This document shows positions 3,888-45,703 of a stretch of DNA of 64,000 nt, in pieces. The stretch lies in NCBI RefSeq assembly GCF_018603885.1, contig NZ_JAHGAW010000001.1, forward strand, positions 186,001 to 250,000, in the 5' to 3' direction. The notes under the pieces were generated by a model. The model was not told the origin of the DNA and ran no database searches. It saw only the letters and a program-made list of their open reading frames with translations. Position 1 is the first letter of the stretch. The number at the start of each line of letters is the position of its first letter. The stretch comes from Sphingobium nicotianae (GTDB lineage Bacteria > Pseudomonadota > Alphaproteobacteria > Sphingomonadales > Sphingomonadaceae). The position numbers and the translations under genes were made by a program.

Positions 3888-4784
3888 ATGCGGAGCGCTC
3901 TTGTCCCAGCAGGAGCAATGGCGCTGGGCGCGCTGGTGGCGGGTTGCACGCCATCGGCGGCGCCGTCGTCCGCGAGCGGCCGTCCTGCTAGCGCGCGCGA
4001 TGATGTCGGCGCGGAGCGGATCAAGCCGTTCCAGTATCTCTATGGATCCGGCGAGGTCGGCGCGCTCTCGATCCAGGCCTATCATGCGCTGATCGGATAT
4101 GCCCAGGCTCAGGTCGCCAGGCGGCCGGTCGACAGCGTGGTCTTGGCGGAGAACGCGACCCTGGCGGCGCCGGCTTTCGTGCCATGCGCCGACAAGCCTT
4201 TCGCGGCGGTGTTCGACGTCGACGAGACGGTCGTGGCCAATCTCGGCTTCGAGGCGCGCGCCGCGAATGGCGAGGGTTATGACGGCAAGCGGTGGGACCG
4301 CTGGGAAAAGACTGGTGGCGACAAGGTCGGGCCGATCCCGGGCGCTGTCACGGCCGTGAAGGCCCTGCGCGCGATGGGCGTCACGGTGATCTTCAACACC
4401 AATCGCGCATCGGCCCAGGCCGAAGGCGCCGCTGAAGCGATCCGCCACGCCGGCCTCGGCAGCGCCGTGCATGGCGAGACGCTCTTCCTCAAGGGCGACG
4501 ACGCGATGGGCTCGAAGAAGGATGGTCGTCGCGCGACGATTGCGGACAGATATTGCGTGATCGCGATGGGCGGCGACCAGCTCGGCGATTTCTCCGATCG
4601 ATTCAATCAGATCAACGCGACGATGGACCGGCGCGAGGCGGCGATCAGCGGCCGGATCACCAATCTGTGGGGCAATGGCTGGTTCGTCCTGCCGAACCCG
4701 GTCTATGGCAGCGGCCTCGACGGCAAGCTCGACGAGATTTTCCCGCCTGAGGTCCGCTGGACCGATCCGGAGGAGGGAAAATGA
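3888..4784 (+). CDS. HAD-type acid phosphatase lipoprotein (class B/C, e(P4)-like)
   Basis: A 298-aa predicted lipoprotein: the N-terminal hydrophobic stretch ends in the lipobox LVAGC. The catalytic HAD motif I is FDVDETVVAN (DxDxT), motif II is INFNTNR-like (VIFNTNRASA), and a Lys-bearing KKDGRR and GDQLGDF (acidic motif IV) follow. This matches periplasmic or outer-membrane 5'-nucleotidase/acid phosphatases, which free phosphate from nucleotides. It starts two bases after the scoA stop and its TGA overlaps the next small ORF start (ATGA). Its position between scoA and scoB is unusual. Confidence 0.85.
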   Translation: MRSALVPAGAMALGALVAGCTPSAAPSSASGRPASARDDVGAERIKPFQYLYGSGEVGALSIQAYHALIGYAQAQVARRPVDSVVLAENATLAAPAFVPCADKPFAAVFDVDETVVANLGFEARAANGEGYDGKRWDRWEKTGGDKVGPIPGAVTAVKALRAMGVTVIFNTNRASAQAEGAAEAIRHAGLGSAVHGETLFLKGDDAMGSKKDGRRATIADRYCVIAMGGDQLGDFSDRFNQINATMDRREAAISGRITNLWGNGWFVLPNPVYGSGLDGKLDEIFPPEVRWTDPEEGK

Positions 4785-26002: not shown

Positions 26003-26078
26003 GGGGCCGTAGCTCAGCTGGGAGAGCGCTACACTGGCAGTGTAGAGGTCAGGGGTTCGATCCCCCTCGGCTCCACCA
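26003..26078 (+). tRNA. tRNA-Ala (anticodon GGC); integration target of the element
   Basis: A 76-base gene with acceptor stem GGGGCCG/CGGCTCC, anticodon loop CTGGCAG (GGC), T-loop GGTTCGATCC and encoded CCA. Its last 14 bases fall inside the 18-bp repeat that also occurs at 45188, so the element restores an intact tRNA at its left end. Confidence 0.96.
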
Positions 26079-26082
26079 TTTC
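26065..26082. other. attL-type core repeat
   Basis: The sequence CCTCGGCTCCACCATTTC spans the tRNA-Ala 3' end and is repeated exactly at 45188-45205. It marks the left limit of the integrated element. Confidence 0.85.
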
Positions 26083-26171
26083 CTTTTTCTATTATATTGA
26101 AATTAGGGCGAAATACCTCATCGCCCGATTTCTGTTCCCACACAAGTTCCCACGGGCTTGCTTTGTCGCCG

Positions 26172-26909
26172 ATGAACATCGGTGAACAATCTTGGACATT
26201 TGTGCGTGCCGGAAGGGCAATTTTCACGATTGCCGATCACATGGGTCCATCGCTTTATCCAGCCGTGGAACGACCATTGAGCGCTTTCAAACCAATTCCG
26301 CCTCATGCTGCCCTGAAGTTGCTAGAAGACGCGGATGTGGGCGTCGATGCCGAGCAACTCCTTACCGATTTGGCGGCAGCCGGACTCATCAAAGGCTATG
26401 CGCGCGTAATCGCCGAGAACGAAGCCACGGTGCGCGACAGCCGCATTCCTCGTCACATCTGGGAGCAGATCGTGACGGAGGACAAGGTGTCCGATGTCTT
26501 TGCCGGAGGTAGCGTGCGGCTGGGTCAGGGCGGCAAAGGTCCGGCTCGCAGCATCATCGGTATTCGATTTGACGAAAGGTCGGTTCACACCGCTGCGGAG
26601 TGCCACGGCTTGGTGTTGCCGGCCAAGACGACCATCCCGGAAGTCAAACCCAACGCCGGCAGTTCGGATCTTCCCAAACGCGACTCGCAGCCTGTCATAA
26701 AGCCTGTTGAGTTGGAAAAAGCAGCACCTCGTCGAATGGGCCTAGCACCTGATGTGCTGACCGTTTCCATTAAGGAAGCGATGGCGATCCTGGGCGTCAG
26801 CCGCGGAACGATCAACAATCTTATCAATCGCGAAAAGCTGGAGATCAGCAAGGTTGGCGGCAGAGTGCTAATTGCGGCTGAAAGCATCCGCGTTCTGCTC
26901 GCCCCTTGA
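26172..26909 (+). CDS. Protein with C-terminal excisionase-type helix-turn-helix
   Basis: A 245-aa protein, first gene inside attL. The last 55 residues form an HTH_17-type (AlpA/excisionase-like) DNA-binding unit: SIKEAMAILGVSRGTINNL followed by LEISKVGGRVLIAAESIR. The N-terminal 180 residues (containing PAVERPLSAFKPIPPHAAL, in part) are not recognised. The start at 26172 is the first ATG after the promoter-like AT-rich stretch. It may bind the att or promoter region of the element (inference). Confidence 0.65.
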   Translation: MNIGEQSWTFVRAGRAIFTIADHMGPSLYPAVERPLSAFKPIPPHAALKLLEDADVGVDAEQLLTDLAAAGLIKGYARVIAENEATVRDSRIPRHIWEQIVTEDKVSDVFAGGSVRLGQGGKGPARSIIGIRFDERSVHTAAECHGLVLPAKTTIPEVKPNAGSSDLPKRDSQPVIKPVELEKAAPRRMGLAPDVLTVSIKEAMAILGVSRGTINNLINREKLEISKVGGRVLIAAESIRVLLAP

Positions 26910-29919: not shown

Positions 29920-31320
29920 ATGAGCGCTCACTTCTTACCCTCCAGCTTCCAGATCGACCGGTCCTATCCGACCTCGCACTGGCAAATCTTCGACGTGACG
30001 CTGAGCTCCCGGGCGCCATGCCCGGTTTGCGGGCCACATGGCCGGATTCAGAGCCGGGGCTTCCATAGCGACGGAGCGATGGAGATCTTCGATCTGCCCC
30101 GCACGCGCCCGGTACAGCTTCGTGTGCGTCGGCGCCGCTTCGAATGTCTCGTGTGCAAGGGGACGGGAAAAGCTCGCACCTTCTCCGAGCGAGGCCCCGA
30201 CATCCACGAGCGCTACAACATGACGCACCGCCTCTACGAGCATGTTCTCGACGCCATCACCAAGAAGCCTCTCGCGCTTGTCCAGAAGGAAACGGGCGTG
30301 CCAGCAGGCACCCTGTGGAACATCGCGCACGATCTCGCTGTGAGGCTATGGGCCAACCACAAGTTCCCCACGCCGCGCGTTCTCTCCATGGATGGCGTCA
30401 AGCTCTATGGGAAGGAGTATATGGTGATCGGCGATGCCCACACGGGCATACCGATTGGTTTTCTCGAAACGATCGAGGCCTCACCTATCAGAGCTTGGGT
30501 CCGTGATAACGTGGAAGAGGCGAGGGTGGAGGTGTTCGTTGCCGATCTCCACAAGAGCAACACGAGCGTCGGCGAACTGCGACTGGGCCGGTCTCTTCGC
30601 GTCGCGGACAAGTGGCACGTCATTGAGCATTATCAGCGAGTGCTATCCCGGCAGATCAACAGCGAGATCGACAGGCTCCGCAAATCGGGGCGAAAGGAGA
30701 TGGCGAAAACGCTTTGGGATCTGAAGCCTGCCATGATGGCCGTGGACCCAAAGAAGTGCAGGTGGCGGCGATATCCGAAAAAGCCCCAGCGCGAATTTGA
30801 TCTGGTGCGCGACCTGAAGCCGATCTTGCGCCGGTTTCCCTTGCTCAGCCGGGCGTACTGGGGCCGCTATGATTTCCTCAAATTCTATAGCAGTGAAGCG
30901 CTTGGCGACGCCATGATCTGGCTGAACCGCTTTCATGCGAGGACGGCGCCCTTTTCCCACACCCAGGATATGGTCGCATTCAACAAGCGCCTCACCAAGA
31001 ACTGGGAGCTCATAACCAACTACTTCCTGTCGGCTCGCCAGATCGCTGGAGGTGAATGGAAGCGGGCAACCACTAGCGCGATGGAGCAGCAGAACCGGGA
31101 GATAAGGAAACGGCTTTCGATCCGGCATGGCGTGCAGAATTTTGCCCTGATGCGCATGGTCGTACTATATGCTCATTGGCACGTGGGGGGCGAGATTGTC
31201 CTGTGCTCCGGGCCTGGCTGCTCGGCTGCGTACGGTCCTGTCGCGGGGCCACCAGTCCCGCCCGAAATCCGAGCCGCTGCGGGCATCTACCCGCAATGCT
31301 CCGAATGCGCCGGTCGTTAA
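29920..31320 (+). CDS. ISL3-family transposase
   Basis: A 466-aa transposase. The N-terminal zinc-finger-like part has CPVCG and CLVCKGTG, followed by HTH-like LALVQKETGVPAGTLWNIA (in part). The DDE residues can be placed as LSMDGVKLYG (D1), FVADLHKSN (D2) and SAMEQQNREIRKRLSIRHG (E), the ISL3 layout. It looks complete and uninterrupted. The terminal inverted repeats were not identified, so the limits of the insertion are open. Confidence 0.85.
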   Translation: MSAHFLPSSFQIDRSYPTSHWQIFDVTLSSRAPCPVCGPHGRIQSRGFHSDGAMEIFDLPRTRPVQLRVRRRRFECLVCKGTGKARTFSERGPDIHERYNMTHRLYEHVLDAITKKPLALVQKETGVPAGTLWNIAHDLAVRLWANHKFPTPRVLSMDGVKLYGKEYMVIGDAHTGIPIGFLETIEASPIRAWVRDNVEEARVEVFVADLHKSNTSVGELRLGRSLRVADKWHVIEHYQRVLSRQINSEIDRLRKSGRKEMAKTLWDLKPAMMAVDPKKCRWRRYPKKPQREFDLVRDLKPILRRFPLLSRAYWGRYDFLKFYSSEALGDAMIWLNRFHARTAPFSHTQDMVAFNKRLTKNWELITNYFLSARQIAGGEWKRATTSAMEQQNREIRKRLSIRHGVQNFALMRMVVLYAHWHVGGEIVLCSGPGCSAAYGPVAGPPVPPEIRAAAGIYPQCSECAGR

Positions 31321-34672: not shown

Positions 34673-34747
34673 ATGGAGGGGAATCGAGTGATCGCAAATA
34701 GCCAGCCAGTAGTGCTTGACGCAATTGTCGAAACCGAGGGCGTGTGA
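34673..34747 (+). CDS. Possible 24-codon leader ORF coupled to the methyltransferase
   Basis: ATG at 34673 (or GTG at 34688, behind GGAGGGG) opens a short frame reading MEGNRVIANSQPVVLDAIVE and ending in a TGA that overlaps the methyltransferase ATG (TGATG). It is either a short leader that couples translation or a chance frame. No conserved motif is seen. Confidence 0.35.
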   Translation: MEGNRVIANSQPVVLDAIVETEGV

Positions 34748-37700
34748 TGTTGCCATCGCACATCGCTGGGCTGCTTGCCTATCTCGACCGTCCGCACGAA
34801 CGAGCCAACGAGGATATGGCGCTCGCGTATTTCCGGGCGCTTTTTCCTAAGTCGTTTCAGCGGCAGAGTGACGCAAAATTGGCGGATGGCTATGTGCCCG
34901 GCCGATTTGTTCTTGAGCTAAAAGGTCAGACTTCAAACTGGCTGGCGGGCTTGTTTCAGGCCTTGGCATACCGCAATTTCGACCTGGATTTCGGGCAAGT
35001 CGTCGTTGCAGCTCACGGGTTTCTGTCGGCATGGCAAGTACGCGATTTGCCCGGGTACCTGCTTGATGAGGTGCGTGCTTGCGAGGGCGCGCCAAACGTT
35101 GTGGGCAGAGAACTTGCACGAAGATATCAGCAGAAGAGGTCAGATTTGCTGGCTCTGTCCTGCTGGAACGGCTCTGATCTGTTCACACCGCTATTTGGTG
35201 CCCAGCCGGAGCTTCTCTTGCATCGGCTCGCTTCGTTTGAGGCCCTCTTAAAAGAAGGAAGGCCCGTCCGACAGCGCGTGACGCTTCGAAACTTTGCCAC
35301 GGTTCTGAAAAACATGGTGCCGTACTTTGATGCTCAACGGCCCGTTGCAGCTGTCAGAGCCTTCTACAGCATGATCTATGCCTGGAATGCCAATTCGGCT
35401 CTGCAAATCAGCGAACGAGCACACGACCAGGCGACGATTGGGGGTGAGATCGTAACCGGCCTGCGGACCGCATCGAGGGAAGCGTTCAAAGAATTTGTCG
35501 AAGGCCATTTCGTGGAGTTGCGCGCTGGCGAGAATCTGGACGACTTTTTCGCCAGATATGACGAGGCGCTGGATGCCGTAGATCCGGAGTTTCGGCGGCA
35601 ACATGGAATCTATTTTACGGACCTACACTTGTCCAAATTAGCGATGTGGATCGCTAAGCAGCATGTGCCAAAGCTTGGCGAAAACTATCTCGTGGTTGAT
35701 CCTGCATGCGGCAGCGGAAATTTGGTCACGAATTGGCGTTCGCCCCTTGAGCTTCGCCACAAGGTTGTGAGCGAGATCGAACCCGAACTGCTTTTCGCCG
35801 TCGAACAACGAATGAAGCTCGATCATTGGCACAACGGTCGCTTTACGGTTGTACCTCGCGTCTCGGAAAATCGCGGTCTCAACTTTCTTGATCGAAGTGC
35901 ACAGGACTACATTGATGAGCTCCGCGACGCTCTCAGCGACAAGGGACATGCACCGGACAAGCCGTTGGCTATCCTCTGCAATCCGCCGTACCGCAGCGAC
36001 GATGATCAAACTGCTGGGGCCATAACCTATGCCGTTCATCCGTCCCTCGTGGCGTTGACCGGTAAGGATGCCGCGAGCGAGAGATACTGTTGTTTCCTCG
36101 CGCAAATGAAGCTGATTTGTGAGGCTGCAAGGTCAAGCGGCTTGCCGGGTGACTCTTTGCTTCTACTCTTCACGAAATCGGCTTGGTTGACCAACAGGGC
36201 TATATTCCGCCAAATCCGACGAGAGATCGCGGGCGTGTTTGAGGACGTGGCCGGCGTTCTGGTGGACGGCAGTCAATTCTTTGATGTCCAGGGCAAATGG
36301 CCGGTCGCCTTCACCATTTGGCGATATAGGGGTCAAGAAGCTGACCTGGATGCGAACAGACCAGTCAACCTCATCGATCTGACCTGGCTTAAACGCAAAG
36401 ATCTCGCTGCAATCGCCTGGAATGATCCCGCTCTCTCCGACGCAGCATGCGATAATCTTCTGAGTGACCCGAGGGCAGCAAAGGCGTCCCTTGGCCGGGA
36501 TCTCGAAGGTATTCGCGCTTGGTCCAACCAACGCATGCTCGACTTCAAGCGTGACCGTAGGAAGTCTGAGCAAAGCAACGCCATCGTAGGAGGCCTGCCC
36601 CTTGGCGACCCGCGTCGTTCAAATCGCAAAACCTATGGCGAAGCTGACGGCAATTTCATCGGTTTCATGGACGACCTCACGCCTTGTCGTGTGAAGCGTG
36701 CGGAGCCGGGGAAGCCATGGTTTCGACTAAATTCTCAGTTCATGGACATCAGAAAAAACAGGTGCTTCTCGGGACCGCCAACCCACTGGGGCTACTGCGC
36801 GACTGATGTCGACAGCGCCAGGAAGCTATTTTTCTGGTACTCACTGGCCCGGACTTTCATTCAACATCCATATCCGATGTGGGCGGACGCAGAGGACCTC
36901 TGGGAGCCCCAAATCCCCATCCAGCACGAGGCGCGGACTTTCGCTCTCTCGGCTGCGATTGCCTATGCGGAGAACGAGTGTGTTGAAACTTGGTATCCGG
37001 CCAACAACCCAATCCATGGCACAAGGGAGGTTTATGTCGGCAACCCGTTCACGCCGCTTGTAGAGGAGTCCTTTTGGGAGCGCACCGTTCGACCAGCTGT
37101 TGTTCTGCGGTCGTCGCCCGGTGCCGCCAAACTCATTGAGGCGGTTGACACGGTTTTTGCTCTTTGGAGCAAACATCTTGGATATCGGCGTGAAATAGCG
37201 CTCAATGCCGAGCCTGCATATTTTATTGACGCGCGAATGCTGGGCCGGGGCGCGGGCTTAATTCAAATTCGAGATTACGCGGAAGCCGCTGGGCATGGCG
37301 CCTTGAAGGAAGCCTTGGCAGAGGTTCGCTCATCTCTGCGCCTTGCAAAAACAGAGTTTCACGATCTGGTCGCCGCTCCATCCGGGCTGGATTATTTCGG
37401 TGTCGCAACGAAGCGCGAAGAGCCAGTCGCGATGCCGACCGCGAGCAGATTTGAACAAGCGTTGGCCCGCCGACTGGCGTTGGCCGGCAACATTGTAAAG
37501 TCGCTCCATGATGATCGGAATTTCGGTCGAACAAAATTGGCCAAAGTCTTCTACGTCGCTGATCGGCACGAAAATTTGGGCCTCGAAACAGAATATCTGC
37601 GCGAGGCCGCCGGCCCATTGGATCAGCGCGCGCTTTACAACAAAAAGTTTGGCGTGGAGGCTCTGGGGCAGAAGCATCAGCTTTTCAGGTCGGTAAATCG

Positions 37701-38064
37701 CGGCCGCATGGTGCGCTACGAGCCGCTTCCCAAGCTGGACAAAATCGATGCATTCGCCCGAGAGCAGCTCGGTGAAAAGCTTGATAAAATCGATCGCATA
37801 ATCGACCTCATGCGTCCGTTGACCACAGACCAAGCCGAGATCGTGGCAACGCTCTATGCGTGCTGGAACGATCTTATTGGGGAGGGGGCGCAGCCCTCCG
37901 ACTGTCTAATTATCGATGATTTTCATCGAAACTGGCACCCAAAGAAAGCGCGGTTCTCGGACGCCCGTCTCGGTTCGGCGCTTGATTGGATGAGGCAACA
38001 TGATCTCGTGCCCACGGGAAGCGCGCCCAAAACGCCGCCGCGAATTAATCGCGCTTCCGACTAA
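34747..38064 (+). CDS. Type IIG-like restriction-modification protein (nuclease-methyltransferase fusion)
   Basis: A single 1105-aa protein. Residues about 50-75 show FVLELKGQTSNWLAGLFQAL, an ExK motif with a following GQ...Q helix that fits a PD-(D/E)xK nuclease. IYFTDLHLSKLAMWIAK is like N6-adenine methylase motif X. Motif I is VVDPACGSGN (near 317-325) and motif IV is CNPPY (near 412), so an adenine-N6 or amino-methylase is predicted. The C-terminal 300 residues contain FGRTKLAKVFYVADRHENL and REAAGPLD, seen in target-recognition-type regions. No separate S or R subunit genes are adjacent, so a Type IIG-like single-chain system is inferred. Confidence 0.75.
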   Translation: MLPSHIAGLLAYLDRPHERANEDMALAYFRALFPKSFQRQSDAKLADGYVPGRFVLELKGQTSNWLAGLFQALAYRNFDLDFGQVVVAAHGFLSAWQVRDLPGYLLDEVRACEGAPNVVGRELARRYQQKRSDLLALSCWNGSDLFTPLFGAQPELLLHRLASFEALLKEGRPVRQRVTLRNFATVLKNMVPYFDAQRPVAAVRAFYSMIYAWNANSALQISERAHDQATIGGEIVTGLRTASREAFKEFVEGHFVELRAGENLDDFFARYDEALDAVDPEFRRQHGIYFTDLHLSKLAMWIAKQHVPKLGENYLVVDPACGSGNLVTNWRSPLELRHKVVSEIEPELLFAVEQRMKLDHWHNGRFTVVPRVSENRGLNFLDRSAQDYIDELRDALSDKGHAPDKPLAILCNPPYRSDDDQTAGAITYAVHPSLVALTGKDAASERYCCFLAQMKLICEAARSSGLPGDSLLLLFTKSAWLTNRAIFRQIRREIAGVFEDVAGVLVDGSQFFDVQGKWPVAFTIWRYRGQEADLDANRPVNLIDLTWLKRKDLAAIAWNDPALSDAACDNLLSDPRAAKASLGRDLEGIRAWSNQRMLDFKRDRRKSEQSNAIVGGLPLGDPRRSNRKTYGEADGNFIGFMDDLTPCRVKRAEPGKPWFRLNSQFMDIRKNRCFSGPPTHWGYCATDVDSARKLFFWYSLARTFIQHPYPMWADAEDLWEPQIPIQHEARTFALSAAIAYAENECVETWYPANNPIHGTREVYVGNPFTPLVEESFWERTVRPAVVLRSSPGAAKLIEAVDTVFALWSKHLGYRREIALNAEPAYFIDARMLGRGAGLIQIRDYAEAAGHGALKEALAEVRSSLRLAKTEFHDLVAAPSGLDYFGVATKREEPVAMPTASRFEQALARRLALAGNIVKSLHDDRNFGRTKLAKVFYVADRHENLGLETEYLREAAGPLDQRALYNKKFGVEALGQKHQLFRSVNRGRMVRYEPLPKLDKIDAFAREQLGEKLDKIDRIIDLMRPLTTDQAEIVATLYACWNDLIGEGAQPSDCLIIDDFHRNWHPKKARFSDARLGSALDWMRQHDLVPTGSAPKTPPRINRASD

Positions 38065-38101
38065 GCAACCGACACATGCGCGGGCGGGCATTGTGTGCCA
38101 C

Positions 38102-38704
38102 CTACTCGCATTTTTCGGAGAACTTCTCCAGCGCTCGATCTTTGCCGAGGAGATAGTCTTCGACCCATACGCGGCCGCTGTCCCCGCTTTTTAGGTATAT
38201 AATGTCCTTGAATCCGTAGCCGCTCTGATAGCCGACTAGGGCCTCGCCGATCTCCGGATCATGACCTCCGTACCATTCTAATATGTAATATCCCTGCGGG
38301 CCGTCGGCGATAAAATAGTCGCAGCCGCGCTTTCGAAGGACCACTGTCAGAGCATTGGGCGGGAGGTTGGGCTTGTTCTTCGGGGTGCTGCCTTGGGCCT
38401 TACTCTGCGGCGCGGCTTCAGAAGGCCGAATGCGGATAACGCTGATCGTTTTCCCTTCGACGGCCATCACGCCTCTATCGGGGCAAACTATGACGCTGGG
38501 GGTATAGGCATACAGGTACTCATAAGAATATTTGACCTGCCAAATCGAGCCGTCGCTTAGTTGGAAAACCTCATCGTTATTGCCCATGAACGGGGTAGGT
38601 CTCGCTACGCTGGAACTGAAGCATTCCGCGGCCCAGGCAGAAGTCGGCAGCCAGAAGGCCAGCAGCGCCAAACTCCACAAAAGATACTTAGTCCCGAGCT
38701 TCAC
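38102..38704 (-). CDS. Secreted protein of unknown function
   Basis: A 200-aa protein with a clear signal peptide (LLWSLALLAFWLPTSAWA, cleavage after AWA). The mature part has several cysteines (AECFSSS, IVCPDRG, KRGCDYF, SEKCE) and beta-rich Gly/Tyr segments. It is convergent with the methyltransferase. No family is recognised. Confidence 0.6.
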   Translation of the reverse strand: MKLGTKYLLWSLALLAFWLPTSAWAAECFSSSVARPTPFMGNNDEVFQLSDGSIWQVKYSYEYLYAYTPSVIVCPDRGVMAVEGKTISVIRIRPSEAAPQSKAQGSTPKNKPNLPPNALTVVLRKRGCDYFIADGPQGYYILEWYGGHDPEIGEALVGYQSGYGFKDIIYLKSGDSGRVWVEDYLLGKDRALEKFSEKCE

Positions 38705-38786
38705 AATCCTCCCCCGCGATTATGAGGCGGTCAATCTATCCGAGCAAACATCGATAGACCAGCGCCGACGATTGGTCAGTCTGGGC

Positions 38787-39047
38787 TCAACCTTGCGCCA
38801 GGAGCTTGGCCAACTCCCGAAGATAGCGGGCCGCCCCGATCGCTTCTGCCGAGCGTCCGCCGTGTTTCCAGGCATTGCGGTTACCCTTGGGCGCGCCGGG
38901 GTTCGTTCCACCGTGCATCCGGCACCGCTTCCGGCCTTTCACCGCCGGAGATTGGCACTCCATTCCCGAGCGGGTCCGGGCTAGGCAGCGCCGCGCTGAC
39001 GATAGTCGCTCCGGCTGCTGCTTGAGATTGATCGTCTGGTTTTCCAA
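38787..39047 (-). CDS. HGG-type small basic protein (phage/element associated)
   Basis: An 86-aa protein with the conserved pattern CLARTRSGMECQSPAVKG, then GRKRCRMHGG and GAPKGNRNAWKHG. This motif recurs in small proteins of phages and integrated elements and at the N-terminus of some terminase small subunits. The Cys/His pattern suggests a zinc knuckle. It overlaps the upstream 311-aa gene by 167 bp in another frame. Confidence 0.65.
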   Translation of the reverse strand: MENQTINLKQQPERLSSARRCLARTRSGMECQSPAVKGRKRCRMHGGTNPGAPKGNRNAWKHGGRSAEAIGAARYLRELAKLLAQG

Positions 39048-39816
39048 ATCCGGTACCCCCTGTGTTCACGGTTTCTGCAATGACGGCCTGTCCACCACGG
39101 TTGTCGACGTGCACGTGACGAACCACCTGCTCGCCGCCACGTTGCATCTTCGCGAGCGTCTCGGCCTGCTGGGAGAAAGTCCTGAGCAGCTTCACCGCGA
39201 GATTTCCGAAAGTTGCCATTTGCGGCACCCATTCGGATTTGCCGATCATCCTAAGCGCACGCAGCGCTGCATCGTTCGTCAAAGCCATTTGAAGCGCTAG
39301 AGTAGCTTCAACCTCATTCTGCGGCTTGGCACCGGCGATGAACGCCAGGGCTGAGTTGACCTCCATCTCGCTCGCGCCTCGATTGTTGCTCGAAGAGAAG
39401 TGGTTGATGAGGTCATTCAGCTTGTCGGTCGTGAAAGAAGCCGACACTGAGGAGAAGGTCTCCGCCAGCTTGAGCGAATGATAGGTGGCGTTGTCGCCTG
39501 GAGCTAGGCCCACAGAATAGCCGCCTGCCTCCGTGCGCTTCAGACCAACGGCGAGTGGCTGAGGCGTCTTGAGGTAGTTGCTGGCCATAGCGATCATCTC
39601 GTCGCGCTTCGCCTTAGGGATTTGATCCCAGCCGGGTACCAGCTCGGCATATTTCCTCTCCGCTACCTCCGGATCGGTCGTGTCGACGATGTGGGCCACG
39701 GTGTCCCCTTCGGCTTGATTGGCGGCAGACCTCTTGGGGCGAGGGGCCTGTTTCCGGCCTGTTAAAACAGGCGTGCGCTTAGGTTTGCTCATTTGATTTC
39801 CTTTGATTGTTTTCAA
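38881..39816 (-). CDS. Conserved element-associated protein with HVHVDNRGGQAVI motif
   Basis: A 311-aa protein. Its middle reads VEATLALQMALTNDAALRAL, then LAVKLLRTFSQQAETLAKMQ and VVRHVHVDNRGGQAVIAETV (in part). The HVHV-x-x-GGQAVI motif is typical of proteins encoded next to HGG-type genes in alphaproteobacterial elements (recalled, not searched). The N-terminus is basic and disordered. The last 55 codons overlap the HGG gene in a different frame. Confidence 0.65.
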   Translation of the reverse strand: MKTIKGNQMSKPKRTPVLTGRKQAPRPKRSAANQAEGDTVAHIVDTTDPEVAERKYAELVPGWDQIPKAKRDEMIAMASNYLKTPQPLAVGLKRTEAGGYSVGLAPGDNATYHSLKLAETFSSVSASFTTDKLNDLINHFSSSNNRGASEMEVNSALAFIAGAKPQNEVEATLALQMALTNDAALRALRMIGKSEWVPQMATFGNLAVKLLRTFSQQAETLAKMQRGGEQVVRHVHVDNRGGQAVIAETVNTGGTGFGKPDDQSQAAAGATIVSAALPSPDPLGNGVPISGGERPEAVPDARWNEPRRAQG

Positions 39817-39837
39817 ACTGAAGATTGCCGGCGTCTG

Positions 39838-40668
39838 TCACGCCGCTGCTCGCTGAGCGCGCGCCAGCTCGAGCTGCAGCGAAACGAAGTGTGTTCGGTT
39901 CAGGCCTTTGCCGGCGATGAACTTGGAGAGCGTGCCGCCCGGGATCTGCGCTGCTTCGGCCAAACGACTTTGCGCGCCCATGCCTGATGCGTGAAGGTGT
40001 GCCGCCAGCCGTTCACGGAGAGCAGCCAGTAACTCATCGCCGATGAGGTCCGTGGAAACGCCACGCGAGATATTGGCCTGTTTCCGTTGCCCTTCGATGC
40101 TCCCGGAAACGCTCTGCCCATGGCATACTATTTGTGTAGCAATATTTGCGACAGCAGCGTCGGTGGAAACACGGCTCGTTTCCGTCGTCACGGTCCCAAT
40201 TTTTGCGACCGTCGCTGGAGATGTTTCCACATCTGTCGCAATTTTTGCGACCGTAGAGGTCAAATTTTGCGACCGTGATTTGTTTCCAATGGGCTTCTGC
40301 CACTTCTCGAAATCGCGGGTCGGCGCCTTGCCGGTGGTCGCGATCCAGGTTGCTCTCCATTGGGTCGCAGGGCCTCGCTTGCGTTGGAAGTAGCCCCGCT
40401 CGGTGGCTGCGATGAAGCCGTGCGCCTCAAGCTCCCGGAGCGCCCTCCAGGCGGTATTTTCAGATAGGCCAGTCTCTTCTGCGGCGACGCGCACCGACAT
40501 GAATAGCTCGCCGTTCTCACCTCCGCGGTCGAAGCGTAGAAGCGCGACCAGAACCTTGATCGCATTGCCGGAGAGATCCCGCCAAGCCTCGCAGCCCGTG
40601 ACGGAGTGATAGAGGCGGATGTGGCGAGGCTCGGAGCGCCTACCCTTGGAATTTACGTTCTTGACCAT
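39838..40668 (-). CDS. Winged-helix replication-initiator-like protein carrying internal DNA repeats
   Basis: A 276-aa protein. The N-terminal 100 residues resemble the winged helix of plasmid/phage initiators and Rep-type HTH proteins: FMSVRVAAEETGLSENTAWR (in part), ALRELEAHGFI. The last 60 residues form a second HTH (GAQSRLAEAAQIPGGTLSKF, in part). The middle is a low-complexity segment coded by direct repeats (TTTTGCGACCGT) in more than one frame. Its start overlaps the stop of the upstream 77-aa gene (TGATG). A replication role is inference from fold and repeats. Confidence 0.65.
   Translation of the reverse strand: MVKNVNSKGRRSEPRHIRLYHSVTGCEAWRDLSGNAIKVLVALLRFDRGGENGELFMSVRVAAEETGLSENTAWRALRELEAHGFIAATERGYFQRKRGPATQWRATWIATTGKAPTRDFEKWQKPIGNKSRSQNLTSTVAKIATDVETSPATVAKIGTVTTETSRVSTDAAVANIATQIVCHGQSVSGSIEGQRKQANISRGVSTDLIGDELLAALRERLAAHLHASGMGAQSRLAEAAQIPGGTLSKFIAGKGLNRTHFVSLQLELARAQRAAA
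40080..40287. repeat. Iteron-like repeats inside the initiator-like gene (possible origin)
   Basis: The 12-mer TTTTGCGACCGT occurs at 40201-40212, 40243-40254 and 40265-40276, with a diverged copy (AATATTTGCGACA) at 40141. The third exact copy is out of phase with the others (22 bp from its neighbour, against 42), so protein-level repetition cannot explain it. One copy lies in the palindrome TCGCAA-TTT-TTGCGA (40236-40250). The hexamer GGAAAC/GTTTCC appears six times from 40080 to 40287 in both orientations. Confidence 0.6.
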
Positions 40669-40901
40669 CAGGCGGCGACCTCATCGTCTGCCGGCGCGCT
40701 CGACATACCAATGATGGAGCAACCGAAATGTTGGGCGAGCCCGCGGGCGAAGGTCTCGGCATCCGCGCGCTGGTTGAAGCGATTTTCGTGGGCAAGGCGA
40801 GGGGTGCGCCCCCGGCTCGCGAGGAAAACGACCGTGCCGCCTTGTTCGGGCAGGACAAACACTGCTCGGTGATCGGCCAGGTGCAGCACGGTCGCTTCCA
40901 T
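40668..40901 (-). CDS. Hypothetical 77-aa protein
   Basis: A small protein (MEATVLHLADHRAVFVLPE, then FARGLAQHFGCSIIGMS) that reads like a compact alpha/beta domain. Its stop overlaps the initiator-like start, and its own start overlaps the 40901 gene stop by one base, so it belongs to the leftward early operon. No family is recognised. Confidence 0.55.
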   Translation of the reverse strand: MEATVLHLADHRAVFVLPEQGGTVVFLASRGRTPRLAHENRFNQRADAETFARGLAQHFGCSIIGMSSAPADDEVAA

Positions 40902-41230
40902 CAGTTGGCGCCTGTCGGAAGAAGGTGATCGGGCGTGATCCAGACGATCGAGCTGATCCCGGCGCTACTTTTTCGGCGCTTTCCGCTGTCCACGATCTTA
41001 CCGGCGACCCGAAGCTCGCTGGTGCGGGGCCTGACGCGGAATTTCTCCCATTGCAGCCGCCCGGCAATTTCATCACCGGTCGCGCCTTCCGGGCCGGCAT
41101 CGCCGATCGTTCGAAGGACCATACTTTGGAGCCGGGGCAGGGCGGGTTGAATATGCTCGGCACCTTCGACACTGGTGTCCACGCCGCGATGCCCTGCGCC
41201 GCCCTTTGCGTAATGGAGGAGCTCAGTCAT
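40901..41230 (-). CDS. Winged-helix-like small protein
   Basis: A 109-aa protein. The C-terminal 70 residues (VLRTIGDAGPEGATGDEIAG, then RVRPRTSELRVAGKIVDSGK) have the RxxELxxxGKIxxSG pattern of short winged helices found in phage and element proteins. It may bind DNA. It overlaps its neighbours by one base and eight bases. Confidence 0.6.
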   Translation of the reverse strand: MTELLHYAKGGAGHRGVDTSVEGAEHIQPALPRLQSMVLRTIGDAGPEGATGDEIAGRLQWEKFRVRPRTSELRVAGKIVDSGKRRKSSAGISSIVWITPDHLLPTGAN

Positions 41231-41429
41231 GAGGCTCTCCTTTTACGAGCTGCGGCATGTTCGCCCGATCGAGGAGCTTGCCCAGCCAATTGGTCTGCGC
41301 CGCGCTCATCGGAGCGTCGTCGACCGCCAGTTGTCCGAGAAACGATCCAGCTTTTCGGCTTAGCCTTTCGCCGGAACTGAGCAGCGCCAACGCGGCGTCC
41401 CGAGGAGACGAGAAGGGTTCATTCGTCAT
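41223..41429 (-). CDS. Hypothetical 68-aa protein
   Basis: A small helical protein (SSPRDAALALLSSGERLSRK, then SAAQTNWLGKLLDRAN). It overlaps the next gene by eight bases and the previous one by eleven, as expected in a compact leftward operon. No function is recognised. Confidence 0.5.
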   Translation of the reverse strand: MTNEPFSSPRDAALALLSSGERLSRKAGSFLGQLAVDDAPMSAAQTNWLGKLLDRANMPQLVKGEPHD

Positions 41430-41607
41430 CGCCCGTCTCCCCGAAGTGATGCAGCGAAACCAGTCTTGCCAAGGGCAGGTTCAGGCCGAAACGGCTGCAA
41501 AGCCATTGCTCTCTGAACCCGGAAGAGATAGACGGGAAACGCGATGAGCCGCCAAGCATGTCGCGCGAGACCCCGGCCCGCCAGCCGGGGTTTTGTATTT
41601 GAGCCAT
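41419..41607 (-). CDS. Hypothetical 62-aa protein
   Basis: A small frame (MAQIQNPGWRAGVSRDMLGG, in part; FGLNLPLARLVSLHHFGE) between the AlpA-like gene and the 68-aa gene. The support is context only: it starts 3 bases after the AlpA-like stop and overlaps the next start. It could be a spurious frame. Confidence 0.4.
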   Translation of the reverse strand: MAQIQNPGWRAGVSRDMLGGSSRFPSISSGFREQWLCSRFGLNLPLARLVSLHHFGETGDDE

Positions 41608-41610
41608 TGT

Positions 41611-41799
41611 TCAGGCCTCCCCCGCCACGAGAGCGTAGAGGGCATCTGCCGGGATGATGGTGCGGCCGCCAATGCGGGTCGCACGGAGCCTTCCGGCAGC
41701 AATGTGATTGTAGAGCGTCGTCCTTCCCAGACTGGACGCCTGGCAGGCTTCTCGGATGCTATATCCGATCTTCGGTGAGTGGTGGTCGATGGACTGCAT
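41611..41799 (-). CDS. AlpA/excisionase-type helix-turn-helix regulator
   Basis: A 62-aa DNA-binding protein of the HTH_17 type: IGYSIREACQASSLGRTTLY, then HIAAGRLRATRIGGRTIIPA, with the R-I-G-x-R-x-I-P motif. AlpA-like proteins switch on integrase or act as excisionases in P4-type satellites. The start at 41799 is preferred over 41832. It lies two genes from the integrase on the same strand. Confidence 0.78.
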   Translation of the reverse strand: MQSIDHHSPKIGYSIREACQASSLGRTTLYNHIAAGRLRATRIGGRTIIPADALYALVAGEA

Positions 41800-41889
41800 T
41801 GGTTTACCTCGGTTTCGTTGGAACCGAGGCAATGAGGGGGCATCAGAAAACCCGCAGCAAATCGCCCATGTGGGGGTTCAGGTGCGGGT

Positions 41890-43689
41890 TTATGCGGCCT
41901 TTTTTGGCCGCCCTGCGGGCTTCCAACGACCCTTTATCAGATCGCGTACCGTGGTTGTGGCCACGTTCTCAAATCCAGGCTCAAGACGCATACACTTGGC
42001 GATCGTGCGTCCATCTAGCCCGCGCGCCTTCATCTCGTCGGCTTTGGATAGTATCTCGCCATCACTTGGTGGCCGGCCGGTCTTTACAGCCGGCGCACGA
42101 CCATAACCCACCGATCGATCGATCTCTGACGGAAGATGTGGAATCGCTGCGATGACCTCGGCAGATGAAAAGATCGGCGCTGGCTTCAAATCATGCCAGT
42201 CCGCACCGGTCGGGCGTTGTCCAACACCAGCAAATTCATGAAAAGCCATCGGGCGCGAAACGCCATTAATCAACTGGACGGGATGCACATAATTCAATCG
42301 GATTTGGTCTAGTAGCTGCCGCCCCGCATCCCGAAAGCATGTGCACCATTCCCAACGGTTGACAGGATCGGTTGCAGCCGCAGCACAGGTGCATGCGTTT
42401 CGAGAAACGTAGAGAAGGACCATGCTGGAACAGATGAACTGGGCAATTTCCTGGTCGTTGTGAGCTTCTAGTTCTCCAACTCGCTCCACGAATGCCGCGC
42501 TACGTGTTGCCACCCAGGCGAGTGATTGAAGCACCGTCCACCAAGGTGCGATATCTGCTGCGGCCAACGGGTCGAAATGCTCATCAGGTAATTGCAGTTC
42601 GCCTACGCCAATAGCGAGCGGTACTGAAGCGGCACTAGCGTTCTCGGTGTCCCCCGGCGATTCCCCACCCGGAAATTGGGTCATCAATTCCGAGCGGGCT
42701 ACCGTAACGTTAGAGAACAGATCGCGCCGATCACTGCCGCGCAGATGAGAATCGTTCGGCGATTTGTACCAGCGGCACAAACCTTCCCCGTAGCGGAGAT
42801 GGTCGTGCCCTGTGATGAGCACTTGCCGATAATCTACGAGCGCTAACACGTCGATTTTCTCTGTGCGCTTCCCCTTGTCTTCATAAGCATCGATGTGGCG
42901 ACCAAAGAAGGACACTCGGCCGGACGATCCGGCTTCCAGAAGCGTTGCAGCCGCGTCCTGCAACCGGTGTTGTGCGGTGTCCAAATCACCGCCGCAAAGC
43001 CGCCTCCATCGCAGTGCCTGATCCAGCCGATCGGCGTTGAGCGCGACGCCAAAAGCAATCCAAGACACGGCCTCTGACAGCGGGACGTGCTCGCTAACGG
43101 ACGGTTTTCGGGAACTGATCGCAAATTCATCTGGCTCAAGCTGTGTGGGAATTTGAGGCGGCAGCCCGGCAGGATCCACAGCATCTGGAGACGCCAACCA
43201 GACTTCAAATTGTTCTTTTTCGATCGCCCAGCCTTGGCCATTCCAGTGTTGCCACTCGTCGGACCACAGCGGATCAATCTCAAAAGTGCCATGCAAAAGC
43301 GCGTTGTGAAGAGCTGAGGTGTTCTGAGCTGCCGGCATGGGAATCGATCGAAAGTCCGATCCATCAAACCATGATGCCGCCAACTGCCCAGAGAGCAATG
43401 CTCGTTGAATCGTAGCAACAATCCGTACCGACAATTTCTGCTTGGATGCGTAGTCCTCGGGAGGATCGCCGAAGTGTGGCCCCCAATAATCAGCGTTGAT
43501 TACGTCGTGCCACGGCGCTGGATCGCCGTCGCCATATTCGGCCTTGAGGCGGCGGAAAAGGTGCCTCGCGCAAATGAATCCATCAATCCAGCCGGCGGGC
43601 AGACCTTTCAACCAGCCGGCATCGCTCAAGTCTTCGTTGTTGCCCTGCTCGTCATATCTCGCCAACTCCGCCTCCCTAGCGGTTCCCAA
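41890..43689 (-). CDS. 599-aa protein of unknown function with C-terminal HTH-like tail
   Basis: I do not recognise this protein. The N-terminal 450 residues are rich in Trp, His and acidic residues (PAGWIDGFICARHLFRRLKA, DEWQHWNGQGWAIEKEQFEVW, in part). The C-terminal 60 residues read VKTGRPPSDGEILSKADEMK and RTIAKCMRLE then LIKGRWKPAGRPKKAA, an invertase-like helix-turn-helix with a basic end. The gene lies between the integrase and AlpA-like gene on the same strand. A role tied to recombination, replication control or defence is possible. Confidence 0.65.
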   Translation of the reverse strand: MGTAREAELARYDEQGNNEDLSDAGWLKGLPAGWIDGFICARHLFRRLKAEYGDGDPAPWHDVINADYWGPHFGDPPEDYASKQKLSVRIVATIQRALLSGQLAASWFDGSDFRSIPMPAAQNTSALHNALLHGTFEIDPLWSDEWQHWNGQGWAIEKEQFEVWLASPDAVDPAGLPPQIPTQLEPDEFAISSRKPSVSEHVPLSEAVSWIAFGVALNADRLDQALRWRRLCGGDLDTAQHRLQDAAATLLEAGSSGRVSFFGRHIDAYEDKGKRTEKIDVLALVDYRQVLITGHDHLRYGEGLCRWYKSPNDSHLRGSDRRDLFSNVTVARSELMTQFPGGESPGDTENASAASVPLAIGVGELQLPDEHFDPLAAADIAPWWTVLQSLAWVATRSAAFVERVGELEAHNDQEIAQFICSSMVLLYVSRNACTCAAAATDPVNRWEWCTCFRDAGRQLLDQIRLNYVHPVQLINGVSRPMAFHEFAGVGQRPTGADWHDLKPAPIFSSAEVIAAIPHLPSEIDRSVGYGRAPAVKTGRPPSDGEILSKADEMKARGLDGRTIAKCMRLEPGFENVATTTVRDLIKGRWKPAGRPKKAA

Positions 43690-43785
43690 GGGTGAGACGG
43701 GGATGCACGTGGGATGCGCGCTTGTCGGCTGGCCAGCCTATCCCCATTGCAATGCTAGCTGTTGGGGCCGGCATTGCCAGATCTA

Positions 43786-45066
43786 TCAGGCGCCTTCTCT
43801 CTTGGGGAAGGGCACGATTTCGGCGTCGCTTGGGCTGCGCAGCACATAATCGGCCCAGGCGTTCATAAGGACACGTCGACGCTCGAAGAAATCAGTTCGT
43901 CGATAGGCAGCCTCGACCCGGTCGGGCAGCTTGTGGGCAAGCGCCTTATCGACCACCTCTTTCGGGATGCTGGTCATCTCGGCCGCCCAGTCCGTGAAGC
44001 TGCTCCGGAAGCCGTGGACGTGCGCATCGGCGATTTTCATATCCCGAAGCACCTTGGTCATCGTCATATCGGACAGCGGCTTCCCCGGGCTCGAGAAGAA
44101 CACCAAGCCGTCCTTTTTCGTGCGTGCCTCTTTCCGGCGCTCAAGGATCTCCAGCGCCGCAGACGATAAAGGGACGACGTGTACCTGCCCGGTTTTCATC
44201 CGAGCGCCAGGGATGGTCCAAGTTCCCTTCGCCAAGTCGATTTCTGTCCAGGTGGCAAAGCGCGTCTCGTTGGAGCGGACTGCGTTGAGAATGGTGAACT
44301 GGAGCGCCTCCCGACCCGCCGTGGGCGTTTGTTCACGCAGCTCTTGCATGAACACGGGGACCTCTTGGTATGGCATGGCGTCGAAATGGTTGTCGTCATT
44401 CGGCTGGCGCGGGAGTCCCTTGCGAACCGACTTCAAGCTTGTCTCGGTCGGTCGCCATCCCTTGATATGGGCGAAGTCTAAGACCGCGCCGATGCGCTGG
44501 AGGATGCGCCGTGCCGTCTCAGGGATATCTATCCAGATGGGAGCGAGCGCATCTCGCACCATGAGGCTGTCGATTAGATCGACGCTCTTGGAGCCAAATG
44601 CATCGGAAACATGGTTCTCGAGGCTCGCAAGCCAGGACTCTGAATGCTTCTTGTTGCGCCATCCGCGCTTGAGCTCTTCATGACAGGCGCGCGCAGCCAC
44701 GTCGAAAGTGGGGATGGTCGGAATTGATTTCTTGCGCTCGGCGACCGGATCGATCCCTGCCTTGACCATCTTCGAATAGGCTTCGGCCTTTTCACGCGCC
44801 TCTGCGAGAGTCAGCTTCCGCCGATCAAGGATGGGGATTTGAGCGGCGAGGCGTTTGGCTTCCGGCGAACGCTCCGAGGTGTCCGCAGGTCCCAATCCAA
44901 GATCGCGACGTTGACCGTTCACCTGAACGCGCAGGAGCCAGGAGCGCGTGCCACTTTCCTTGACGAGCAGATAGAGGCCGTTGCCATCGCGATGGCGACC
45001 AGGCCCCAAACTCTTCACATCAGCTGCTACAAGCTCGCCCACCGAGGTTCCCCCAATTGTTCCCAC
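43786..45066 (-). CDS. int: P4-type tyrosine integrase
   Basis: A 426-aa site-specific recombinase with an N-terminal arm-binding region (DGNGLYLLVKESGTRSWLLR, in part) of the DUF4102 type. The catalytic residues are the Arg in LNAVRSNETRFA, HxxR in VHGFRSSFTDWA, the later His in LAHKLPDRVE, and Tyr in EAAYRRTDFFERR. It should recombine at the 18-bp tRNA-Ala core next to it. A GTG at 45066 gives the longest frame; a GTG at 45042 is an alternative start. Confidence 0.9.
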   Translation of the reverse strand: MGTIGGTSVGELVAADVKSLGPGRHRDGNGLYLLVKESGTRSWLLRVQVNGQRRDLGLGPADTSERSPEAKRLAAQIPILDRRKLTLAEAREKAEAYSKMVKAGIDPVAERKKSIPTIPTFDVAARACHEELKRGWRNKKHSESWLASLENHVSDAFGSKSVDLIDSLMVRDALAPIWIDIPETARRILQRIGAVLDFAHIKGWRPTETSLKSVRKGLPRQPNDDNHFDAMPYQEVPVFMQELREQTPTAGREALQFTILNAVRSNETRFATWTEIDLAKGTWTIPGARMKTGQVHVVPLSSAALEILERRKEARTKKDGLVFFSSPGKPLSDMTMTKVLRDMKIADAHVHGFRSSFTDWAAEMTSIPKEVVDKALAHKLPDRVEAAYRRTDFFERRRVLMNAWADYVLRSPSDAEIVPFPKREGA

Positions 45067-45187
45067 ATCATAGCTTGGCTAAGGTTGAACAGCAATGAAG
45101 CTGGTTGAACAATCGAAGGCGTAAAATCCTAGAAATAAGGGCGAGTCTTGAGCAAAGCCGAACTAGGCTGGACAAACGTTAGATGGA

Positions 45188-45205
45188 CCTCGGCTCCACC
45201 ATTTC
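45188..45205. other. attR-type core repeat
   Basis: An exact copy of the 18-bp tRNA-Ala 3'-end sequence at 26065-26082. It is the right limit of the element, about 120 bp past the integrase start. Confidence 0.85.
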
Positions 45206-45461
45206 ATTTCAACGATCACGACGATGTTCATCGCGCACCAATAGTCGGAGGGCTCTTCGAGGATGGTGAGGCCGTGTGTGCCGGGCATGTCGCGATCGAG
45301 CAGGATAGATATTCGGCAGCACCCATTCGATGTCATGATGGCCTCGTCACGGCTGGACGCGATGCCGCGAATATCGAAGGCCTGCCCTGAAGATCACTGT
45401 CGTCAATGACATAGACTCTCGGCCTGTTCTTGCGGAACCTCTGGATGGAAAGCGTCTTCAT
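45206..45461 (-). pseudogene. Decayed response-regulator receiver fragment
   Basis: From an ATG at 45461 the minus strand reads RVYVIDDSDLQ, the acidic pocket of a receiver domain. The frame soon stops, and in another frame about 37 codons on it reads LDRDMPGTHGLTILEE, like the phospho-acceptor Asp region (D-x-P-x-x-G-L). The spacing fits one receiver domain broken by a frameshift and ending at attR. It is non-functional and lies next to the tRNA-Ala target in the ancestral order. Confidence 0.4.
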
Positions 45462-45703
45462 TGATGCGATCCTTCGCTGTTCAACATTCCCACATGCTGC
45501 CGAACGACGCCGCGCGCCGGGACCTTGGTGTTAGCGAGGATGAACGCCGAATATCTGGATGGGGATGATGAGATTTCTCCGTCAGCGCGTTCCATCCTTG
45601 TCCCAAAATGGCGCGGGATATGGTCATGATGCTGGCGGAGTCCTTGAGTCTGCACTAATCTTACCCGCCGAAAGGGCTTCGGGGGCTCAGGGAACGCTGG
45701 TTG
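45462..45703. other. Intergenic region upstream of the ECF sigma gene
   Basis: I see no supported gene. The minus-strand frame ending at 45458 (last residues VRQHVGMLNSEGSHQ) may be a remnant of a gene once upstream of the receiver fragment. The ECF sigma promoter should lie here, but no clear boxes stand out. Confidence 0.35.

Follow-up and report, generated by a model that had tools for sequence, protein, structure and literature searches.

Can the gene of a replication initiator-like protein carry, within its own coding sequence, the origin at which that protein acts? We addressed this question in a Sphingobium genome, at an island lying in the window (the whole 64-kb stretch of DNA analysed here), where a 276-aa initiator-like protein is encoded at 39838..40668 on the minus strand and where the original prediction had proposed an embedded origin. 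We judge it probable (about 0.8), from the sequence and by analogy with known systems, that a four-repeat array and an A/T-rich box in the linker-coding DNA of this gene constitute the island's replication origin, with the protein's own winged helix as the predicted binder.

A repeat array and an A/T-rich box within the gene

We found exactly three copies of the 12-mer TTTTGCGACCGT in the 64-kb window (at 40201, 40243, and 40265; 0 in the other orientation) and a diverged fourth copy at 40136-40155, in agreement with the numbers given in the original prediction. Among 20,000 synonymous-codon shuffles preserving both the protein and its codon use, none contained any 12-mer three times. On the coding (minus) strand, the copy at 40265 lies in a different frame from those at 40201 and 40243, so that the earlier remark on one out-of-frame copy also holds. 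Each copy, read on the coding strand, is one arm of a 19-bp inverted repeat composed of a 7-bp arm, a 5-bp core, and a 7-bp arm (7-5-7). Four such iterons were placed on the minus strand, with starts spaced 22, 42, and 57 bp: iteron 1 (40256..40274; GGTCGCA aaatt TGACCTC, 3/7 arm positions), which carries the copy in the different frame, iteron 2 (40234..40252; GGTCGCA aaaat TGCGACA, 6/7), iteron 3 (40192..40210; GGTCGCA aaaat TGGGACC, 6/7), and iteron 4, the diverged copy (40135..40153; TGTCGCA aatat TGCTACA, 6/7). The automatic dyad scorer picked three of these four and missed iteron 1, which was placed by analogy with two homologous genes (L033 and L068) in which the scorer picked the whole set of four with identical spacing. 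The TCGCAA-TTT-TTGCGA palindrome noticed earlier is present and corresponds to iteron 2. Abutting iteron 4, as the sequence after the last iteron, is the A/T-rich box TACACAAATAGTATGCCA (40121..40138, minus strand), a candidate unwinding element.

Such repetition could merely mirror selection on the linker for recurring protein motifs (TVAKIAT-like). TVAK does recur in the protein, and a looser dyad score of the window gene is borderline against codon shuffles (20 vs 15.6 ± 1.9, equalled in 6 of 200). We nevertheless give this explanation hardly any credence, because it is already contradicted by the copy in another frame and by homologous genes in which sites continue beyond the open reading frame (7 of 37, see below); the lack of a 12-mer triplet in the codon shuffles and the very low model confidence of the linker, as in disordered stretches, also argue against it.

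The encoded protein and its relation to known initiators

The protein has an HTH_36 match at residues 31-86 (Pfam, 2.1e-8), and in PHROG its top matches belong to replication initiation, helicase-loader, and O-like families (best 7.7e-7). Its domains are ordered as winged helix, repeat-encoding linker, and C-terminal HTH. The N-terminal winged-helix domain spans residues 16-125 (40294..40623, minus strand; Pfam match, AlphaFold model, and fold search), and the predicted C-terminal domain spans residues 211-275 (39844..40038, minus strand; predicted structure and fold neighbours). AlphaFold gave a confident winged helix and a confident four-helix C-terminal domain, with pLDDT below 50 across most of residues 134-205 in the linker between them; the iterons and the box are the codons of approximately residues 132-183, nearly all within this low-confidence linker. 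Modelled alone, the C-terminal domain reached a mean pLDDT of 84.6, and its fold neighbours were XRE/lambda-repressor-type and POU-specific domains (Foldseek E 0.5 or worse). Among 11 members of this domain scanned with Pfam, two matched YdaS, two HTH_3, and one HTH_31, while the window protein's own domain had no match. The domain thus looks like an XRE/lambda-repressor-like HTH, a label that rests on the Foldseek neighbours and on the Pfam matches of some members.

We further compared the protein with solved and predicted structures. With Foldseek, neither the initiator model nor the C-terminal domain alone had a PDB match at E ≤ 0.001; a lambda O structure was absent among the PDB matches listed, which says nothing on the absence of similarity. 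In a viral structure library, 45 models were found at E ≤ 0.001, one of them named lambda GpO N-terminal, with low TM-scores. A sequence search of solved structures returned weak matches only, mostly generic DNA-binding proteins, and hhalign against lambda O gave an E of 0.001 but a probability of 21%. In Pfam, the window protein had no match up to E 0.1 to Phage_rep_O (PF04492; lambda O itself, 5.7e-36) or RepA_N, and none to RP-C. In lambda the partner helicase loader P is encoded next to O; the two neighbouring genes scanned here (38881-39816 and 40901-41230) had no match to a named replication family. Downstream of the initiator gene, the segment 38787-39816 (minus strand) encodes a 311-aa protein and an 86-aa HGGT protein, which occur as a pair in only one (L032) of the 20 contexts compared.

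The likeness to lambda O that was originally suggested is supported in anatomy, with an N-terminal winged helix, 19-bp 7-5-7 repeats within the gene, and then an A/T-rich box. The lambda iterons are annotated at 39034-39118, inside gene O, and in both systems the repeats follow the N-terminal DNA-binding domain, the window array being a predicted origin. Measured as 7-5-7 units, the lambda iterons have arm matches of 6, 5, 6, and 3 of 7; both systems therefore have four 19-bp imperfect inverted repeats (6, 6, 6, and 3 of 7 in the window), and a 19-bp inverted repeat is the smallest lambda O site reported (PMC7466680). The A/T-rich region adjoining the lambda iterons is a longer tract, to which one short box in the window may correspond, and the two proteins share the O-like families phrog_678, 345, 18020, and, weakly, 391 (E 0.023). 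In contrast, the iterons are spaced 22/42/57 bp in the window and 20/24/23 bp in lambda, the window protein combines a predicted C-terminal HTH and extra GGAAAC sites with the lack of Phage_rep_O, and its gene resides in a Sphingobium-type island rather than a coliphage.

The second comparison concerns the RepA_N initiators, for which PDB 4pql and 4pt7 are, we assume, structures of the winged-helix N-terminal domain. For pSK41 Rep (RepA_N), it is reported that the N-terminal domain binds four boxes inside rep, that the origin-encoding part is the linker, and that pPR9 is a natural chimera of an N-terminal domain plus origin (PMC5703833). This layout of N-terminal domain, origin-encoding linker, and C-terminal domain is matched by the domains and repeats of the window gene (PMC5703833). 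The window protein differs by having no RepA_N Pfam domain, and whereas the pSK41 C-terminal domain interacts with DnaG, that of the window protein looks like a lambda-repressor-type HTH with a DNA word of its own. Because it has neither Pfam domain, the window protein appears to be lambda-O/RepA_N-like in working yet to stand outside both families. A third system is RepC of repABC replicons, an alphaproteobacterial origin inside repC that is A/T-rich and free of iterons (PMC3155836). The window gene resembles it as an alphaproteobacterial initiator gene with a predicted origin inside, and RP-C gives a sub-threshold match (2.1e-4) in one homologue, L035; the difference is that iterons dominate the window array and are absent from the repC origin.

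Layout and sequence of the array among homologous genes

A protein search identified 72 relatives among the 7,994 best candidates, some of them named Sphingobium, Sphingomonas, and Erythrobacter. Of the 72, 52 entered alignment A1 alongside the window protein, and 20, fragments plus some others, were left out by choice. Scanning contigs of close relatives yielded 0 loci with a single-protein query and 8 with an alignment query, and searches of plasmid proteins and of phage proteins produced one weak match each. The resulting DNA set, for which part of the available loci was fetched, held at least 65 non-redundant homologous genes, the window gene included.

The original prediction would have been refuted by homologous genes that lack the repeats while keeping the protein, and this check came out in its favour for part of the genes. 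Using as threshold a dyad-and-repeat score reached by at most 2 of 200 shuffles, we found that 37 of 65 genes exceeded it against dinucleotide shuffles, mostly with a different word, while 28 fell below it, and on visual inspection some of these had dyads that were fewer or weaker; against codon shuffles, 23 of 46 testable genes exceeded it. A score of 20 was reached by the linker in 29/65 genes and by the winged-helix part in 0/65. Exact 6-bp-arm dyads with a gap of 5 numbered 47, compared with a shuffle mean of 5.0 (10 shuffles, 65 genes), and there were 3 and 4 at gaps 6 and 8 and 50 at gap 7, the last including the GGAAAC dyad. Dyads were in excess at odd gaps across the 65 linkers, but gaps 12 and 14 also had raw counts of 20 and 28 (shuffle mean for gap 11, 4.7).

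Words were compared in the 37 threshold-passing genes, with the other 28 of the 65 left out. These 37 carried 28 distinct half-site consensuses, including GGTCGCA, GGTACCA, TGGCTCA, TGCTGAC, GGTATTG, and GGTCCGG. Picked sites fell in more than one frame in 22/37 genes, a count inflated by some chance picks, and repeat sites extended past the end of the open reading frame in 7/37, with some of the early-stopping frames coming from incomplete genomes and possibly representing broken genes. Judging from these sequences, the layout and geometry of the array persist while its word varies, and coding is not required for it, because of the sites beyond the reading frame, the mixed frames, and the 28 half-sites.

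The A/T-rich box was similarly widespread. A loose pattern (roughly CACATATA-n-TAnnCCA), drawn by eye from the same sequences in which it was counted, was found in the linker of 35/37 genes (shuffle mean 8.0, maximum 16); it was missing in L003 and L037, and in L090, L113, and L046 the match appears fortuitous. In many genes the box could be seen directly after the last picked iteron, in 10/65 it lay outside the reading frame, and it occurred also in genes without detected iterons. The box may serve in unwinding. Five genes (L060, L065, L100, L014, and L021) have the box CACATATAATATACCA, one base off in L060, and no significant iteron array. An array was also seen at 4162-4291 of a Pseudomonas phage record (vB_Pae_U1; L103), which has an O-like gene and four GGGTACA-gaaac-TGTACCC-type iterons, of which two lie past the end of the reading frame; this 16-kb 'phage' record also contains Rhs genes and has the look of an island more than of a complete phage.

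Association of the iteron word with the winged helix

Mantel correlations of half-site similarity among the homologues with protein identity gave r = 0.53 for the recognition helix, 0.53 for the wing, and 0.48 for the earlier part of the winged-helix domain. The recognition helix kept an r of 0.36 after the earlier part had been regressed out, and the earlier part kept a partial r of 0.26 after the recognition helix had been regressed out (0/2,000 permutations each); since the genes are related, these p-values are not those of independent samples. Half-sites ending in A were present in 8/8 genes with Asn-Thr in the recognition helix, compared with 4/29 others. These results support, but do not prove, recognition of the iteron word by the winged helix, the correlation falling short of proof because the relatedness of the genes remains in it.

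GGAAAC as a probable second type of site

The original prediction listed six GGAAAC hexamers in both orientations within 40080-40287; all six were recovered, together with a seventh at 40054. On the minus strand they comprise GGAAAC site 1 (40282..40287), site 2 (40223..40228), sites 3 and 4 forming a GGAAAC-N7-GTTTCC dyad (40165..40183), GTTTCC site 5 (40105..40110), GGAAAC site 6 (40080..40085), and GTTTCC site 7 (40054..40059), and they are interleaved with the iterons. Seven hexamers in the linker were reached in 0/300 codon shuffles (mean 0.72), and outside the gene region the densest 330-bp stretch of the 64-kb window contained two. Among the homologues, 15 of the 22 genes that have the C-terminal HTH contained three or more GGAAAC, as did 2 of the 43 that lack it (Fisher, 8e-8); this test was formed on the same related sequences in which it was counted, and its p-value, too, is not one of independent samples. 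GGAAAC was the commonest hexamer in the linkers of C-terminal-HTH genes (81 copies), and the 15 GGAAAC-rich genes were spread over 6 of 15 winged-helix clusters. The remaining 7 of the 22 had fewer than three copies: L093, L094, and L096 had 0, 0, and 1 despite an HTH that looks intact, and L004, L016, L043, and L046 had 0-2. These distributions suggest that GGAAAC probably represents another kind of site, one that goes with the C-terminal domain.

One gene, L013, is a natural chimera, combining the repeat type of its N-terminal relatives with the GGAAAC of its C-terminal relatives. Its winged helix is nearest to that of L022 (62%), which lacks both such a C-terminal domain and GGAAAC, and its C-terminal domain is nearest to that of L033 (93%), with four GGAAAC present in L013. 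The iteron spacing of L013 is that of L022 (33, 33, 78), and the words are similar, not identical (TGGTAAC vs CGGTGAC).

The HTH domains at both ends of the protein, the resemblance of GGAAAC-N7-GTTTCC to a repressor operator, and the repressors and controller proteins among the fold neighbours of the C-terminal domain would also fit a transcription factor that uses the repeats as operators to repress its own gene or to regulate the island, with no origin involved. We consider this unlikely, as the spaced iterons with an adjoining A/T-rich box follow the lambda-O arrangement, the PHROG matches are mainly replication proteins, and the sites lie in the middle of the gene. A promoter search of 38000-45500 found no sigma-70-like promoter where 2.0 were expected by chance, which is weak evidence given this low chance level and a search that covers the sigma-70 type only.

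A proposed mechanism and its significance

For the embedded-origin reading, we propose that dimers of the winged helix would occupy the 7-5-7 dyads and form an assembly across the spaced sites that opens the A/T-rich box next to them, in the manner described for the origins within the lambda O and pSK41 rep genes. GGAAAC, and with it the GGAAAC-N7-GTTTCC dyad, would be read by the C-terminal lambda-repressor-like HTH, which, positioned on sites interleaved with the iterons, might bridge or regulate the complex. More tentatively, and at slightly less than even odds in our estimation, this could be a two-word origin, in which two DNA-reading domains have their site sets interleaved in the DNA of their own linker, and in which satellite-like islands of Sphingomonadales swap cassettes of domain plus word, changing their replication identity while the box and the layout stay fixed. 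Most likely, then, the array is an embedded origin in the style of lambda O and RepA_N, from which it departs by the predicted second HTH with its own GGAAAC sites. No published account of this type of origin was found among the best literature matches, and one may still exist.

An origin embedded in the initiator gene would keep the protein and its target physically linked. Dozens of natural variants with a constant layout and a changing likely target word would offer a series for studying how winged-helix initiators read iterons, and the same series may show how replicons become compatible. Moreover, GGAAAC and the second HTH suggest a layer of origin control that is not mentioned in the accessible parts of the lambda O and RepA_N reports.

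The island and its relatives

The gene resides in an island of approximately 19.1 kb at tRNA-Ala (26003-26078), as delimited by two exact copies of an 18-bp repeat, CCTCGGCTCCACCATTTC, on the plus strand: attL at 26065..26082, the 3' end of the tRNA gene, and attR at 45188..45205. Homology to two related genomes ends at 26083-26085, next to attL; on the other side it does not reappear until 45734 and 49867, which leaves the 18-bp repeat as the basis for the right edge. A tyrosine integrase lies beside attR (43786..45066, minus strand; Pfam and PHROG), and the island includes a small HTH_17 gene (41611..41799, minus strand; Pfam), which we take to be AlpA/excisionase-like.

A tRNA gene was present at 14 of 19 homologue loci scanned. 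We searched for att-like repeats at 14 tRNA loci (13 homologue loci and L104, the window's own site in another genome) and detected them at seven, two of which (L028 and L109) are the same place; the repeats enclose approximately 9.5-11.5 kb in L026, L028 (= L109), L035, L108, L112, and L113. Repeats of 12-13 bp only were seen in L029 and L105, and none in L106, L027, L111, L032, and L104. A PHROG scan of three relatives showed an integrase, HNH, and a capsid protein in L028 (Altererythrobacter); an integrase, HNH, TerL, major head, protease, and portal in L035 (an IMG/VR contig); and, in L106 from the window's genus, TerL, protease, and portal beside an initiator homologue that is 66% identical to that of the window, the top of 20 contexts. 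These three look like satellite-like islands resembling capsid-forming PICI. The embedded array suggests how this tRNA-targeted island family, some members with capsid genes, may replicate.

Since the three scanned relatives adjoin terminase and/or head genes, the array might instead be a packaging or recombination site of a phage satellite (pac/cos-like or accessory integrase sites). We regard this as very improbable, given that the word varies with the winged helix encoded by its own gene and that, in the window, approximately 5 kb separate the array from the att site. Classification of the window island as a PICI or cfPICI was considered and rejected, because the predicted origin is positioned differently and no capsid genes were recognised among those scanned. 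In PICI, the origin is described as lying 3' of rep, where an A/T-rich region sits between two sets of iterons (PMC6092414), whereas the window array is inside the gene and on one side of the box; likenesses are the integrase, the tRNA att site, and the six relatives with att-like repeats enclosing 9.5-11.5 kb. The cfPICI are reported to make their own capsids (PMC11389934), and are resembled among the three scanned relatives by L028 and L035, with a capsid gene, and by L035 and L106, with TerL, protease, and portal. In contrast, no capsid or packaging genes were recognised among the window-island genes scanned (5 proteins with PHROGs, 16 with Pfam, and 9 with PADLOC).

The island also carries an ISL3-family transposase (29920-31320, plus strand), which is part of why it exceeds its relatives in size. 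Possible defence cargo comprises an HTH protein matching mads_1 (26097-26909, plus strand; 8.6e-8) and a 1106-aa methyltransferase-like protein (34744-38064, plus strand) that has an end resembling type I specificity proteins (8.4e-30) as well as a mads_2-like stretch (1.2e-6).
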